This document shows, in pieces, positions 1,150 to 60,366 of a stretch of 64,000 bases of DNA. This DNA is from Ascidia mentula (lineage: Eukaryota > Chordata > Ascidiacea > Phlebobranchia > Ascidiidae). Each line of letters begins with the position of its first letter. Position 1 is the first letter of the stretch. Location of the stretch: the NCBI GenBank assembly GCA_947561715.1, contig OX387202.1, positions 13,777,001-13,841,000 on the forward strand, written 5' to 3'. A program made the translations under genes and the position numbers. Under the pieces are notes generated by a model. That model was given only the letters and a program-made list of their open reading frames with translations, ran no database searches and was not told where the DNA came from.

Positions 1150-1293
1150 CTGTCAAACAAAACAAGTGAGCTACAGAAAGTGACAATATGTTTGGACTAA
1201 TCAAATCTCATTAGAGCAGCTATCAAAGATTGAGTATGGTTTTGTTGGCTAGCTAACGCAGGCTACCTAGGAACCAATCAAGGCTTTGATTTA

Positions 1294-1332
1294 CTGTTGA
1301 CATATAAGGTCGAAACAGTACGTGGCTTTGTC
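1294..1332 (+). other. Hammerhead ribozyme-like relic
   Basis: CTGTTGA at 1294-1300 is one base off the core CUGAUGA. It is followed by a short GAC/GTC arm, GGTCGAAACAGT, and a GTC at 1330-1332, in the same order as the intact ribozyme at 5494-5544. The core A6 position is changed and stem I does not pair, so it would not be active. Probably a decayed copy of the same repeat. Confidence 0.35.
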
Positions 1333-2626: not shown

Positions 2627-5600
2627 TCATGTTGTGGCACTTTTCTTTTTGGACACATCTTCAGTGTTGTTTAGGGGTATCAAAATCTCCTGATACTCCA
2701 AAGGGAAGTTTTCCTCGATAAGAACTTTCAGACTGCGGTTTTCTGTTATAAACTTTTGCCTGAACAAAAACAAACTTTGCGTTGTGACTCAATGGCAATA
2801 TTACAAATATCAGAGGCCCTAAAAGCTCCCCTAACCCCCAGAAGCAAAAACTGTGTATCTACTTTTGTCTCTACTAGAACAATAAATTTAGGAACACAAA
2901 AAACTTTCAATGGTAGTTCCAAAACCGTTTTTTGATATTGCGACTTTTTAAAGAAGCCTATGAACCATATTGACATGTGACCTACATGCATTGCACACTG
3001 TTTTAAACTTCAATGCAATTGATGACTGTGGCTCGACACCAGTTGGTTAACTAGAAAAGAGTTTACAAATAATTTGATATAAGTAACACCGCGTTGATAT
3101 TTGCTTGCTTAACAGAATTATCACAAACAAAGATAGACTAATGTATTACCTGCGCATAATAAGTTCCATGTCATCGCGAGTGATCGTTTTTCTGTGTGCG
3201 TGCACAGAAGCAACCTCCATATCTTCACAGAGATTTGCAAAAAATTTGCCAAACACCTGCTCAATTTGCTTAAGAGCACCTCTGTTAAAATAGTTCAATT
3301 GCACTTCACTTGTGGCAAACAAAATTAATTAATAACTGCCTACTTTGATACTTTTCTTGTGCTGTAATGTTCAACAATGCCACGTAGTTGTGTGGATGAG
3401 ATGGGAATGTTATTTCCAGACTTCACAGGTTTAGTTTTTTGTGGTAATTTTCGTTTGTCAAACCTTGAATAAAAACACATGTATTTTGAAGCACATACCT
3501 GAAGTATAATTTAATTTGTGTTAAATTCGTTGGTGACAATGGCATGTCACAACTAACTGCGGAAGTTTAACACTTGAATTTGGATTTTTCTTACATGCAC
3601 TCAATGAAAAATGCCTGTTGTTGCAACAACTTACATTTTTAAGGAAGGCTTAGGAACTTTTTCTATTGGTCTTGACATTTTTGTCAGGGGAATTTGTGGA
3701 ATAGGGGTATGACTGCTATGGGATGATGCTAAAATTAAAAAACATCATTACTTGCACACCAATAGGGTTACAAATGCTATACAGTATGCATGGAAACAGT
3801 TTTAATATTCGAAAATCAGAAAAATCACTTTTCCAACCTCAATAGATAATTTGTGCATGAAATATCTGCTATACAAAGTACTGAAATGAATTTAATGAAA
3901 AAAAATAAAAAATTTAACAAATATTTTTATTAAAAATCAACACCAGTGACACATTTAATTAAAACCCTAATTTTAATTTTTATATTTACCTGCATGAACA
4001 CTTTCTACCTCTTGCATTTCTTGGTTTTCCTCACCAGTTTTACTCTGAGGAATCAATGATTATCACACACACAAAATGCACAGATACATAGCAAATAGAA
4101 TACATACTAAGTTCTCATCTTCAGTAATATTGAGTGTTGTCACTTCATTTGCATCACCAGGTTTTGTGGCTAATGGACCATCTGCTTGGGATGCTAAACA
4201 ATTAACAAACATTTCTGCAAAATCCTAAATTTATGCAACAAAATATTTTTTTTATATATGAGCACAATAAAGCGAATAATATGGAGTCTGGGATATTTTT
4301 TAATGCAACTATTTTAACCTATAAGGTCCTATCAGTGCAGAGGAAGTCTGTGCCATTAGGCCAGCAAGATTGTCTGAATGCAGGAGTGATGCCAAGCTGC
4401 ACTGATGAGACCTTACAGGTAAAATAATGTCCATCTGTCTGCAGCTCACTTAATTTGTTTTTATCACTACTAACCCTCATGAAGGCTGCTCAAGTTAAGA
4501 GGATCTTCATCAGCTGTATTGTCCTGAGTGATAATCTCTTCCTGTTCACAATATCATGATGCATTTAGTTTACAATGACATGTTTCATTTATTATAACTT
4601 GGAAATCGGTCCTTTATCAAGCTAGTTTTAACCAATGGTGTTAAAATATATCAATAAGCAGAAGTATGCTCAGTCAGATATATATATTGTTTCCATTTTG
4701 CTTCAAACTAAGAGTAAGTTTGAATTCTACTAGCACTATGTTTATTTACCTCAGATAAACTTGGGTCTACAGCTGATCGTTCATCTGTGTCTTTTTTTGC
4801 AGAGTGAAAGTTGTTTAGTTGTTCTTCAACAGACTGTGACAAATCTGCAATAAAAAACATTACCAAATACAATTAGGTCAAGAAGCATATTGATACTTGC
4901 ACAGAATTATAAAGAAGATTCACTTGACAAATAGAAAATTGTCAGCTTCTATAAAAAAAATTTACAGAAAAAGGAAACATTGTTTTTTACTTTTTCATTT
5001 TCACATCTAAAGTGAAACTAATGATTACTTCAACTGTAGGCACCATCATTACCATTAGTTTCATGCCGTTGAATGGATTCGTTTTCTGCATGGATCGTGG
5101 GAAATTCAACTTCTGAATGTGGGTTTGTGGTATGATTAGTCCCATCACCTTTTTCCCTGTTTAAAGTTTGAATATTAGAAATTAAATTATATTTGTACCT
5201 ACTTTTTCACCAACACAGTTGTTTGATAGGTTGCGCTTTTGCATCATCAAGCGTAACTTACAATGAAGACTTCTTTTTAGCTTGGGCCTTAGCCTCCTTC
5301 AACATAGCTAACTTGGCCTTGAGTTTGTTATGGTATTCATCCATGCTAATGACAGGTTGAGATATAGGGAGGTCATTGAGTGATTGCAATTGAGAGCTAC
5401 ATTGAAACAATCATTAGGCATAAATATTTTAAAGTAACATAAAAGTGTAAATCCAGATTGCAGAAACGAACAGTTATGCTAAATTGTGTATAAGCTGCAG
5501 ACAAGTGGCCACTGTTTCGACCCAAAAGGTCTCATCAGTGCAACTATGCTAAAATTGCAGTTGAAAATGTTTACAAAATGCTCAAAATTTTAAACCTGGA

Positions 5601-7089
5601 TTGCTCAGTTATATTCAGTGTCTCTTCAACAACATCCTGTAATCTGCACAAACAAATCATATTTTTTAATTTCCAACAACTAAAATGTTTACAAAAACAC
5701 AAAATTCTGAACCTAGACTGGTCATGAGTTTGAGTCTGTGCCTCTTCAACAATATCCAGTGGTCTGCACAAAAAAAACACATTTACAGTTAATCAGTAAA
5801 ATAATGACCCACAATCAAGCATCAAATAACTTAAAAAGTACTATGATGCAAATGAAGACTATATACTCGGATTGCAATTCTTTACATTTTAGCTTGTATT
5901 ATTTTAAAAGGGTTACTTTACAACCATCAGGAAAAATCAATTTTTGGTAGAAAATACTTTTAGAAAATCTTACTCTTCTTGAAGGACTTGGTCAGGTTGA
6001 GACAGCCTTCGTTTTCTTTTTGGTCGGTGAACAGTGGGCAAGTACTCACTCGTACTCATCGCGCCAAGCAAGGCAGTTCTTGGGGTAATTGTTGCATCCA
6101 ACACCGCAGCCGAGGTTTCGCCTTCATGAATGCTGTTTCAAGTATACAAAGCAATATGTACATACAGTTATACAAAATATCTCTTGCTGGGCAGTGCCAG
6201 TGCATCCCGTTAACATTGTACATTGACCATGAACACAGTATAGTGTTAAACTGTTTCATGCTTACCAGCAGCCAAATAGCTTTGGTTTTCTTTTTTTAAA
6301 TACAAAATTCCATGTAGTTTGTAATGGAATTATATTGCTTTTCATATTTAAAAAAATTTTATGGTCAAACTATTTGGAAAGTTTGTTATTTGTGTGAGGA
6401 TATTTTTGATCTGTTTATTTGTGGAAAGAGTCGCAAATATATAGGGATACATCAAAGACAAGATAGAAACAAAAGATAATTGCTGTGATTACGCGACAAA
6501 GGGGACTTAGAAGAAGTAGAGCAAGTTGAAAGACATAACGCAAGTGAGATAACTAGTTATGGCGTCAGAAAGACGGGCGTAAATGTAAAAGAGTAGAAAG
6601 ACCAAGTTTAAAACAAAATATCAATAAATATTCGAATTACGACAAGCCGAAATCCCTAGAGTGGATTGCACAGATTTTGCACAGACAAACGGAAGTTTTT
6701 TGTATAACGCATTAGCCAATTGTTTTTTTGCACAGATTGTCAACAAAATTTGTTATAATAATGTCGGAAAAATATTACCTTTTCACTGAATAGCTAGTCT
6801 ATTACATTTGTAAATACAACTATGATTACCTTTTGGTGGATTTATTTGTTGTGACACCAGACAAACGCCGTTTATTCCTTCGTCTCGTTTTAACAGTTTG
6901 TTGAACATCCTTTGGTTGCATTATATTTTGCAACAAAAATCTTGGTGTTGCGTTATCCAGCGTTGGAGTTTCCAACATATTTTCCTCTTCCATTTTCTTT
7001 GCAATTCGAGTCTTTGCAAAACTGCTGCGTTCGTTAAACTTTGTTGTGTTTTGAGAATTTTGTTTTTTTCTGCATTCGCGGTAACACAA
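2627..7089 (-). CDS. CENPT: CENP-T, inner kinetochore histone-fold protein
   Basis: Fourteen exons join in phase: 6830-7089, 5974-6132, 5713-5763, 5596-5643, 5262-5396, 5053-5156, 4750-4844, 4475-4541, 4108-4193, 3990-4044, 3635-3728, 3344-3463, 3150-3281 and 2627-2759. They encode about 512 residues (human CENP-T: 561). The last three exons give the histone fold with RKTITRDDMELIMRR followed by IEENFPLEYQEILIP, which line up with the RKTVKPEDLELLMRR and ERHLPLEYRQLLIP segments of vertebrate CENP-T. The N-terminus has two TPR-type motifs, ATPRFLLQNIM and ITPRTALLGAM, as in the CDK-regulated Ndc80-recruiting arm. A Lys/Ala-rich predicted helix (MDEYHNKLKAKLAMLKEAKA) lies in the middle and an acidic Ser/Thr-rich linker follows. 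Family role: with CENP-W it binds centromeric DNA and recruits the outer kinetochore. The start could instead be the in-frame Met at 6993. Exons 3 and 4 are tandem duplicates, and two introns carry hammerhead-related repeats. Confidence 0.92.
4312..4425. repeat. Inverted repeat with hammerhead-like arms
   Basis: The segment 4312-4340 and the segment 4397-4425 are imperfect inverted copies of about 29 bases, each containing CTGCACTGAT followed by a GACC/GGT arm. The right arm is part of a degenerate hammerhead (see 4396-4445). It sits in the CENP-T intron 4194-4474. Confidence 0.55.
4396..4445 (+). other. Degenerate hammerhead ribozyme copy
   Basis: GCTGCA (4396-4401) can pair with TGCAGC (4440-4445) as stem I, CTGATGA is intact at 4402-4408, and GTC precedes the predicted cleavage site at 4439/4440. 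The second core strand reads AAAA instead of GAAA, so catalytic G12 is absent, and stem III is poor. It is antisense to CENP-T, inside its intron. A homologue of the element at 5494-5544; predicted inactive. Confidence 0.5.
5494..5544 (-). ncRNA. Hammerhead self-cleaving ribozyme with complete core
   Basis: Read on the minus strand: GTTGCA (stem I), then CTGATGA (core, 5538-5532), stem II GACC-TTTTG-GGTC, core GAAA, stem III ACAG/TTGT closed by a 7-base loop, then GTC and TGCAGC (stem I partner). All invariant core positions are present, including G12, the A15.1-U16.1 pair and the G10.1-C11.1 pair. Stem I forms 6 pairs with one G-U, extendable to 7. Cleavage is predicted between 5500 and 5499. 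It lies in the CENP-T intron 5397-5595 in the sense orientation, so it would be transcribed with the pre-mRNA. Activity is inferred from structure only. Confidence 0.8.
5596..5763 (-). repeat. Tandemly duplicated CENP-T exon pair
   Basis: Exons 5713-5763 (PLDIVEEAQTQTHDQS) and 5596-5643 (LQDVVEETLNITEQS) are 51 and 48 bp, have identical phases, and encode related acidic peptides. Similarity continues about 30 bases into the downstream introns, both of which contain TTTTGTAAACATTTT after the donor. This shows duplication of exon plus flanking intron rather than convergent sequence. Confidence 0.8.
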
Positions 7090-12514: not shown

Positions 12515-13380
12515 TTAATTTCTTCCAGTTGATCCAAAACCTCCACCACCCCTTTCTGTGTCCTCCAGTGTCTGAAAGAAAGTTTGCAATGCGAAAATTA
12601 GGTCTGCTTTAATAAAAACTAGTGCATACATATAACTAATTCATTACTGATGCATTAAACAGGTTGACAAATTTATGAAGTGTAGACAAGTTTTATCATA
12701 AAAATTAAACACTCACGTTGAATTGCTGCAGCGTCGGATAAAAAATTCTTTCACAGATAAGTTGTGCAATCCTGTCTCCTTTTTTTACTAAAAATTTGGT
12801 AATTTTTCATAAAGTCAAAAATGAAGATCAAACCAGAAATACCTTCAAAATCTTTGTTGTTAAAGTTAAAAAGTATAACACCAACATTTCCTCTGTAGTC
12901 TTGGTCGACTACACCTGCTCCTACGTCAATAAAATGCTTGTTTGCCAATCCAGATCTCGGAGCAATTCTTCCATAACATGCATCAGGCAAGGCAATTTGA
13001 ATGTCAGTCTTGCACAGCATTTTTCCGTGGCTTGGCACTGTGTAATCATATGCACTAAAATATACATAATTAGTGAAGCAAAAATGGCATTACTATTTTA
13101 AAAAAAGGAATACAAAAACCAACAACATCTTGAAAAAGTATATAAATACACAACAAAACAAGACGATAAAGAAAGTATTACACCAACGTTTTTACCTATA
13201 GAGGTCATATCCGGCAGCAAACTTGGATCCCCTGGTGGGTGTTGTAGCATTTCCCGAAAGCTTTGCAAACTTTAAAGTTGTCGGTAACTCCTCAAACTTA
13301 TGGGCCAACTTGACTCGTTTTGGCGATGGCAAGTTTTGCGTCTCTTTCAGTGGAGATACTTTCATTGGTAAAGCCGCCAT
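12515..13380 (-). CDS. DUT: Deoxyuridine 5'-triphosphate nucleotidohydrolase (dUTPase)
   Basis: Four exons, 13196-13380, 12843-13054, 12717-12787 and 12515-12571, join in phase to 174 residues. All five trimeric dUTPase motifs are present: AAGYDLYSA (I), PRSGLA (II), [15 protein letters not shown] (III, with the catalytic Asp), [10 protein letters not shown] (IV) and [10 protein letters not shown] (V, the flexible C-terminal arm). It converts dUTP to dUMP and pyrophosphate, keeping uracil out of DNA and supplying the thymidylate precursor. The N-terminal 40 or so residues ([26 protein letters not shown]) are basic and Pro-rich, and PSPKRVK resembles a nuclear localisation signal as in the nuclear isoform. 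No defects seen. It is divergent with XYLT. Confidence 0.96.
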
Positions 13381-14212
13381 TGTTTGTACGTTTTTCGGTT
13401 GGCAAGCGCAATAGCCTTAACAAATAAAATCGCAACTAAAGTACAAAAAAAAGCACCTAAAGTACAAAAAAAGCACCTAAAGTACATAAAAAAAACGAAT
13501 CATTTCAAACCATAACATAGACGTAAATTAATACAACATAAATTAACTTTTCACAAACGAACCAAAAGATACTTTATTTATTGATCAATGCCAATCCACC
13601 ACTTCCAGTCATAACCAAAAACTACGCGCCTTTTGGCTCCAATATTTCGCGCCAAATATTGTTTCTATTTCTAATTAGATTTTCGACGGTCCTCTAGCTC
13701 TACCTTGCGGATTTATATAAATTTAGCTCAAGCGGAATCTTCTAGGATTGAAAAATAAAAGCAGCTTTCTGGTACTACTACTTTAGATAAGGCTAATCAA
13801 TTATATATACGAAACATATCGTTGCCATTGCAATCTATACTACCGTCGGAGAGAAAGGAATACGCTTGAAAATGTAATTTTATAAAAAAAAACGCGTTCA
13901 AGCGTAAAAGAGAGGAAGTTGAAGAAAGAAAAAGTGACAACAAGCATGAAATAAAAACCCTCCCAGCTTGGCAGCGTTGCGCGCTGTTTGGTCTTGTAAT
14001 GAGGAATAGTTTGTAAGCGTCGCGTGTTCAAGTATTACTTTTCAATTGATCTGTTAAATTATCGTTTACGCGCCTCGTGTAAGAAATTTTCTCATGCGTA
14101 TTGTGTGACTATAAAATGTGGCCACGTACTGTCCAATGCTAAGCGTACATTGTACTTTGCAGGTGTACGAATCAATGGAGCCGAAATTTTACTCGTAAAA
14201 ATAATTGTAATA
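13381..14212. other. Head-to-head intergenic region of DUT and XYLT
   Basis: About 0.8 kb. Near the DUT start (13435-13495) three tandem copies of a 20-base unit, CCTAAAGTACAAAAAAAGCA, are seen. The rest shows no recognisable element; both promoters must lie here. Confidence 0.6.

Positions 14213-37078: not shown

Positions 37079-41293
<4,215 letters not shown>

Positions 41294-47070: not shown

Positions 47071-50545
<3,475 letters not shown>

Positions 50546-56657: not shown

Positions 56658-60366
<3,709 letters not shown>

Follow-up and report, generated by a model that had tools for sequence, protein, structure and literature searches.

An intronic hammerhead in the CENP-T gene of Ascidia mentula as a probable truncated copy from a retrozyme family with Penelope-like insertion ends

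Does a ribozyme embedded in an intron take part in the expression of a kinetochore gene in an ascidian? The question is raised by the window studied here, by which we mean the whole 64,000-nucleotide stretch of Ascidia mentula DNA that was analysed. A first-pass annotation of its letters had reported a hammerhead ribozyme in the sense strand of a CENP-T intron and had proposed that it could cut the pre-mRNA or release a small RNA. The tunicate origin of the genome agrees with its mitochondrial COX1, on contig C79: of the translations made with tables 4, 5, 9 and 13, that with table 13, the ascidian code, fits, since AGA/AGG fall at expected glycine positions. This code is not known outside tunicates.

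The hammerhead and its host intron

The host gene is recognized by a histone-fold exon at window positions 3149-3328 (-), which matches Pfam PF15511 with an E-value of 1.8e-11 and solved CENP-T chains in the PDB with an E-value of 5.8e-9. The host intron is a GT...AG intron of 199 nt at 5397-5595 (-), and its limits are a reading of the sequence by eye, based on the splice sites and the frames of the flanking exons, rather than an annotation. Two adjacent and similar short CENP-T exons (..EEAQTQTHDQSRFRIL / ..VVEETLNITEQSRFKIL) are seen at 5574-5792 (-); at the DNA level they share 78% identity across ~77 bp, and they look like a tandem exon duplication.

Direct reading of positions 5493-5545 (-) reveals a complete type I hammerhead core, with stems I, II and III and a GUC at the cut site. 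Stem I pairs AGTTGCA (5545-5539) with TGCAGCT (5499-5493) through 7 pairs, one of which is G-U. The CUGAUGA core occupies 5532-5538, where position 5538 was assigned via the descriptor given below, and is followed by stem-loop II, GACC-UUUUG-GGUC, at 5519-5531 (arms 5531-5528 and 5522-5519) and by GAAA at 5518-5515. Stem III, ACAG-UGGCCAC-UUGU, spans 5501-5515 with arms at 5515-5512 and 5504-5501; it has 4 pairs, A15.1-U16.1 included and one of them G-U, and its 7-nt loop sits within a 10-nt palindrome, AGUGGCCACU. The CUGANGA...GAAA core, three helices, UH cut site and open stem I that define the type I class are thus all present in this copy. The cut is predicted after C17 (5500) and before U (5499), a position that we take from standard hammerhead numbering, with C17 at 5500. 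In its anatomy the first-pass annotation was accurate, since the complete minus-strand core, its coordinates, the GUC with a predicted cut at 5500/5499 and the orientation along the sense strand of the CENP-T intron (5595-5397, as read from the sequence) are all borne out.

A descriptor made up of CTGANGA, stem II of at least 4 pairs, GAAA, stem III of at least 4, UH and stem I of at least 5, with G-U allowed, has one match on both strands of the whole window, which is the 5493-5545 (-) site. No site was obtained in 300 simulated windows of similar dinucleotide composition (Markov-1), and for this reason the motif in the CENP-T intron is not attributed to chance. Judged by its sequence, it is a genuine hammerhead.

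A dispersed repeat family

How is this hammerhead represented in the rest of the genome? The core with stem II has 1770 exact matches (889 + 881) in the 195.8-Mb assembly, and a looser pattern that includes stem III and UGUC has 1621 (834 + 787); the reversed-pattern control yielded 0 for both. The places listed for the looser pattern, all on contig C1, represent several sub-families, which are told apart by their loops II and III. Loop III is palindromic across the main C1 sub-families despite its differing sequence (UGGCCA, GUGUACAC, GUGUAUACAC; for example L101-L104 and L112). A BLAST query of 201 nt around the window site, for which counts are lower bounds, listed at least 63 matches, consisting of the site itself, the 78% exon duplicate and at least 61 repeat matches that are 84-97% identical. 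The 61 listed repeat matches fall within window positions ~5452-5546, and most of them within 5481-5545.

Comparison with the other copies delimits an inserted 61-bp solo copy at 5484-5544 (-) that comprises the hammerhead and ~16 nt past the cut (GTTGCACTGATGA...TGTC^TGCAGCTTATACACAA). It lies between the two copies of a target-site duplication, a perfect direct repeat of 9 nt that borders the element and reads TTTAGCATA on the minus strand, with the 5' copy at 5545-5553 and the 3' copy at 5475-5483; direct repeats of at least 9 nt were found in 1 of 426 mismatched control pairings. The complete family unit is 285 bp long, with a G+C content of 47%, and at locus L072 six hammerhead-bearing units, the first of them 5'-truncated, stand in a row after one inverted copy. 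There is no long reading frame in the unit, the longest being one of 94 codons that runs across tandem units. The window copy is a fragment, a 5'-truncated solo in which almost nothing of the unit is left ahead of the hammerhead.

Animal non-LTR retrozymes with type I hammerheads have been described by Cervera and de la Pena (2020; PMC7229834), and the tunicate family has the properties of that class: short units of 150-450 bp, in tandem or dispersed, that contain a type I hammerhead but lack a coding frame, and target-site duplications of more than 4 bp, the last shared by the window copy with its 9 bp. In the sections of PMC7229834 drawn on here, the published elements also resemble the tunicate family in their tandem copies, in a G+C content below 50%, in a size range (150-450 bp) into which the 285-bp unit falls, in target duplications longer than 4 bp and in the presence of Penelope-like elements (PLEs) in the same genome. 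The tunicate family differs from them by its 4-pair stem III and palindromic loop, and neither its two 3' ends nor its inverted pairs with a tail on one member are described in those sections. The words tunicate, ascidian, Ciona and chordate are absent from the main text of that paper. Nine type I hammerhead loci are counted for Didemnum vexillum in the part of PMC8704543 that was consulted.

A covariance model, R1, was built from 38 other genomic copies with the window copy left out, and it scores the window copy at 70.8 bits (E = 2e-16). Covariation over the 38 copies did not rise above shuffles, 106 of 500 of which reached the score, and 2 stem pairs had double changes against a shuffled mean of 1.0, with 127 of 500 shuffles as high; significance is not reached because the 38 copies are too alike. 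Rfam at gathering thresholds has no match in the window, so the above-threshold hit by which the first-pass annotation had proposed to check its hammerhead did not materialize. In E-value mode the RAGATH-1 hammerhead gave 16.1 bits (E = 4.9, cut-off 56.3) and the type III hammerhead gave 24 bits (E = 0.008), under its 48.5-bit cut-off. The type III reading was rejected, as the Rfam alignment leaves the GUC unaligned. Rfam also returned no hammerhead at E <= 0.1 on seven loci of the repeat family, five of which carry the family hammerhead; since it misses the family as well, its silence is taken to reflect a limit of the models and is weak evidence against the motif. A chance or decayed look-alike without hammerhead ancestry would be consistent with the missing Rfam match, but is scarcely credible for a sequence that has no counterpart in 300 simulated windows, scores 70.8 bits against a model of other copies and belongs to a whole family that keeps the core.

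Insertion ends and Penelope-like elements

The 5' ends of the family copies are scattered, and the 3' ends fall in two classes that lie ~30-34 nt apart. Short ends are found ~16 nt past the hammerhead cut site (...CUUAUACACAA) and long ends ~42-55 nt past it by script, most of them at 44-50 (...GGCUCCACAUUGCUUAUC). Under the cut-offs of the script, 36 of 72 copies count as short and 21 as long; a further 11 are 'mid' (27-29 nt) and the remaining 4 are 'through'. This classing covers copies that match the regex and have at least 70 nt downstream, outside the six overlapping loci L006, L008, L026, L036, L037 and L098 and the PLE loci L040, L047, L058, L068 and L073. Inspection by eye showed the 11 mid copies and one through copy (L016) to be short-ended, with the match prolonged by chance into AT-rich flanks, and the other 3 through copies to continue into the next tandem unit.

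Many copies are arranged as head-to-head pairs with both 3' ends pointing outward. The longest repeat common to the outer flanks measures 12-14 nt in 12 of 17 such pairs, near-duplicates L005 and L007 included, and 4-9 nt in the other 5; at least 12 nt was reached in 2 of 272 crosses between pairs. In 12 pairs both members could be classed, and in 12 of 12 the members end differently: 9 are short/long, 1 is mid/long, and in 2 short/through pairs the through member continues into an array with a long end on its last unit; short/short and long/long pairs do not occur among the 12. These 12 pairs do not include the copies L005 minus, L007 minus, L027 plus, L091 plus or L096 plus, whose loci are within the 17; L091 is truncated at the end of its locus. 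If ends were drawn independently (47 of 68 ends short, with mid counted as short), complete discordance would have a probability of ~4e-5. The outer flanks of the 12 classed loci are not duplicates of one another; near-duplicate copies (L005/L007, L081-L084) mean that the counts are not all independent. One tail-to-tail pair was also seen (L035, 1026/1572), and it is taken for two separate insertions.

Single copies were examined for end-to-end repeats over 71 of 81 copies, the 10 with very long matched stretches and the six overlapping loci being set aside. Repeats of at least 8 nt were present in 15 of 71, with the window copy and the flank-sharing L022/L023 both included, versus 4 of 426 mismatched pairings. 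The 56 of 71 without such a repeat are explained in part, in our view, by the many copies that belong to inverted composites.

Are such ends known from other elements? In the parts of PMC3846280 used here, published PLEs have head-to-head inverted pLTRs with 8-10-bp duplications and, optionally, a 31-bp tail at the 3' end of one inverted pLTR. In vitro, a PLE uses two adjacent internal start sites, and both strands of AT-rich targets are cut and extended (PMC11167929). The tunicate family, compared with PLEs that carry minimal pLTR hammerheads as presented in PMC11167929 and in the portions of PMC3846280 and PMC7761336 consulted, is alike in its head-to-head inverted copies, in a tail of ~30-40 nt on one member, in target duplications of similar size and in a hammerhead upstream of two 3' ends.

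The same genome contains GIY-YIG frames of up to 892 aa, and the ends of its own PLEs could be compared. In the first PLE family (23 rows, counted from its own hammerhead, where L049/L050 and L063/L077 repeat the same place), ends lie at +91 to +100 in 9 of 23 and at +131 to +135 in another 9; 3 rows run on and 2 end elsewhere (+9, +69), and L060 has an odd minus end, a stump at +9. A second family (6 rows) ends at +111 in 2 and at +150 and +155 in one each, and 2 run on. Head-to-head pairs occur at first-family loci L049, L057, L058 and L066; in every case one member ends short and the other long, and L057 and L066 appear to be near-duplicates. The two PLE pairs with a computed duplication share 12 nt, versus 6 in crosses. 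Because the paired ends, the tail and the duplication are common to both, we conclude that the retrozyme family inserts as PLEs do.

The family thus shows head-to-head copies, a tail on one side and target duplication as PLEs do, but its 285-bp unit is unlike a PLE in having neither a reverse transcriptase nor a GIY-YIG frame (no frame exceeds 94 codons). The window copy is single and tailless, unlike the family's head-to-head pairs. Two PLE families with frames of 801 and ~890 aa (L071, L073, L075), which form tandem and head-to-head arrays, have their own minimal hammerheads, seen by eye (CUGAAGA..GAAACGUC and CUGACGA..GAAAGCUU). These differ from the retrozyme hammerhead, whose stem III is longer, so that no particular PLE can be named as the one that would serve the family. 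Of 36 loci selected because they have GIY-YIG or PLE frames, 4 (L040, L047, L058, L068) contain hammerheads of the R1 type, with a degenerate core in L040 and L047. A regex search filtered for stem II, run beside PLE frames, yielded no hammerhead in L039-L067, one in L068 and again none in six PLE stretches (L070, L071, L073, L074, L075, L077).

Origin, mobilisation and the place of the CENP-T copy

What, then, is the hammerhead in the CENP-T intron? We assign it, with a probability of about 85%, to a non-autonomous hammerhead retrotransposon, namely an animal retrozyme with a ~285-bp unit, of which it would be a 61-bp copy truncated at the 5' end, inserted in the PLE manner and most likely a neutral passenger of the intron. 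An alternative hypothesis, which overlaps with this one, would derive the repeats from PLEs, either as solo pseudo-LTRs or through internal deletion, and not from a retrozyme with a circular-RNA stage. The PLE-like ends, head-to-head pairs and tail would be expected under this alternative, as would the presence of R1-type hammerheads next to PLE frames at L040, L047, L058 and L068. However, the 285-bp unit, its tandem arrays and its lack of a long frame fit published retrozymes (170-400 nt and tandem, in the sections of PMC7229834 used), and the whole unit is in none of the PLE loci fetched, L058 having a 189-bp stretch that is 69% identical to it. We regard this alternative as possible and somewhat doubtful.

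Under the preferred reading, a truncated retrozyme copy, insertion can be pictured as follows. Genomic units would be transcribed, often from tandem arrays, and their hammerheads would trim the unit RNA. Trimming of RNA by hammerheads is known for retrozymes elsewhere. A Penelope-like reverse transcriptase/GIY-YIG endonuclease would cut both strands of an AT-rich target, and cDNA synthesis on the RNA would be primed internally, either ~16 or ~46-50 nt past the hammerhead cut, at sites that correspond to the observed ends. Synthesis from both strands would give a head-to-head inverted pair, one member tailed and one without a tail, within a target duplication mostly of 12-14 bp. Synthesis from one strand that stopped early would give solo copies, and the window copy would have stopped at stem I. 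The CENP-T copy would most likely be a neutral passenger that leaves the pre-mRNA when the intron is spliced.

The idea that animal retrozymes are moved by PLEs has already been published as a hypothesis: the available part of the PMC7229834 Discussion calls PLEs 'a strong candidate', and that of PMC7761336 calls them 'likely candidates' on the grounds of shared hammerheads, tandem copies and co-occurrence. The paired-end signature seen in these sequences supports this idea. We lean towards a more specific hypothesis, in which a Penelope-like enzyme acts in trans on animal retrozymes and mobilises them by priming on both cut strands at two fixed RNA sites, so that one insertion yields a head-to-head pair with one half tailed and solo 61-bp hammerheads are aborted products of the same reaction. 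If it is true, the insertion ends provide direct genomic evidence for a link hitherto proposed from co-occurrence. Among the literature matches listed, where few subscription papers are covered and absence is weak evidence, no paper by its title treats the insertion ends of animal retrozymes. An equally limited search found none that combines Penelope-like elements with ascidian and ribozyme. More than 1000 hammerhead copies together with PLEs of the same paired-end signature make the question of the mobilising enzyme testable, both by sequence and in vitro.

Could the copy nevertheless act on its host gene? A domesticated intronic hammerhead that tunes CENP-T, by cutting its pre-mRNA or through a small RNA that it releases, would account for the complete core, the GUC and the sense orientation, and repeat-derived intronic hammerheads may be domesticated according to the part of PMC3088659 available. 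From the same part of that source, the hammerheads of RECK and C10orf118 in amniotes likewise lie in introns of protein genes, are conserved across mammals (RECK also in birds) and are active in vitro; the CENP-T hammerhead is unlike them in being a repeat copy and in being known here from one genome. Across the hammerhead, the window copy departs from the common family copy by 4 changes, all of which preserve pairing or fall in loops: a C to U change in stem I gives U-G, a C to U change in stem III gives G-U, and the rest are in loops II and III.

Against this stand the 1770 core copies of which it is one, its own duplication scar and a second, broken copy in the same gene. The latter, at 4395-4448 (+), is antisense and lies between CENP-T exons as read; R1 scores it at 54.8 bits (E = 3.4e-12), and it has GGU-AAAA where the intact core has GGUCGAAA. 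A decayed head-to-head partner, weak at 16.2 bits (E = 0.05, R1), is found at 4284-4342 (-), and the remaining minus-strand copies detected by R1 in the window are decayed as well.

Nearest-neighbour folding, whose energies ignore tertiary stabilisation, places the hammerhead fold 5.1 kcal/mol above the minimum for the window copy versus 2.3 for the common family sequence. As a monomer the window copy favours a competing structure, in which CACUG of the core pairs with CAGUG after GAAA. Folded within the intron, the pair probabilities are at most 0.001 for stem III, at most 0.09 for stem I and 0.97 for stem II. These calculations predict that the window copy cuts poorly on its own. A PLE hammerhead cut in vitro only with protein present (PMC11167929), and for amphibian retrozymes the hammerhead is more effective in dimeric form (in the sections of PMC7229834 used). 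Through its palindromic stem-III loop the window copy could form a dimer, but the other minus-strand copies that R1 detects in the window are decayed; by analogy, such loops in the main sub-families hint at dimeric hammerheads like those of amphibian retrozymes.

We consider a function in CENP-T very improbable. The repeat origin of the copy, its own duplication scar, its truncation and the broken antisense second copy leave a regulatory role in CENP-T without support. A kinetochore-specific function was rejected on the genome-wide core count and on the second, broken copy within the gene. The first-pass annotation was thus right about the core, coordinates, GUC and sense orientation; its attachment of the motif to CENP-T, with a part in kinetochore expression, is not supported for what is a 61-bp insert between 9-bp direct repeats. 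The link to CENP-T being incidental, the finding first reported matters little, and the family behind it matters more.

Other remnants of hammerheads are present in the window. Three decayed copies at 39772-39827, 49006-49061 and 58845-58900 (+), with R1 scores of 23-28.6 bits, occur one per repeat of a tandem duplication whose period is ~9-10 kb and which by eye also holds alpha-tubulin-like exons. A decayed head-to-head pair at 1167-1221 (-) and 1299-1332 (+), scored by R1 at 25 and 16 bits, lies near a gene that by eye is multicopper-oxidase-like, and dUTPase-like exons are seen by eye at 12700-13420 (-).
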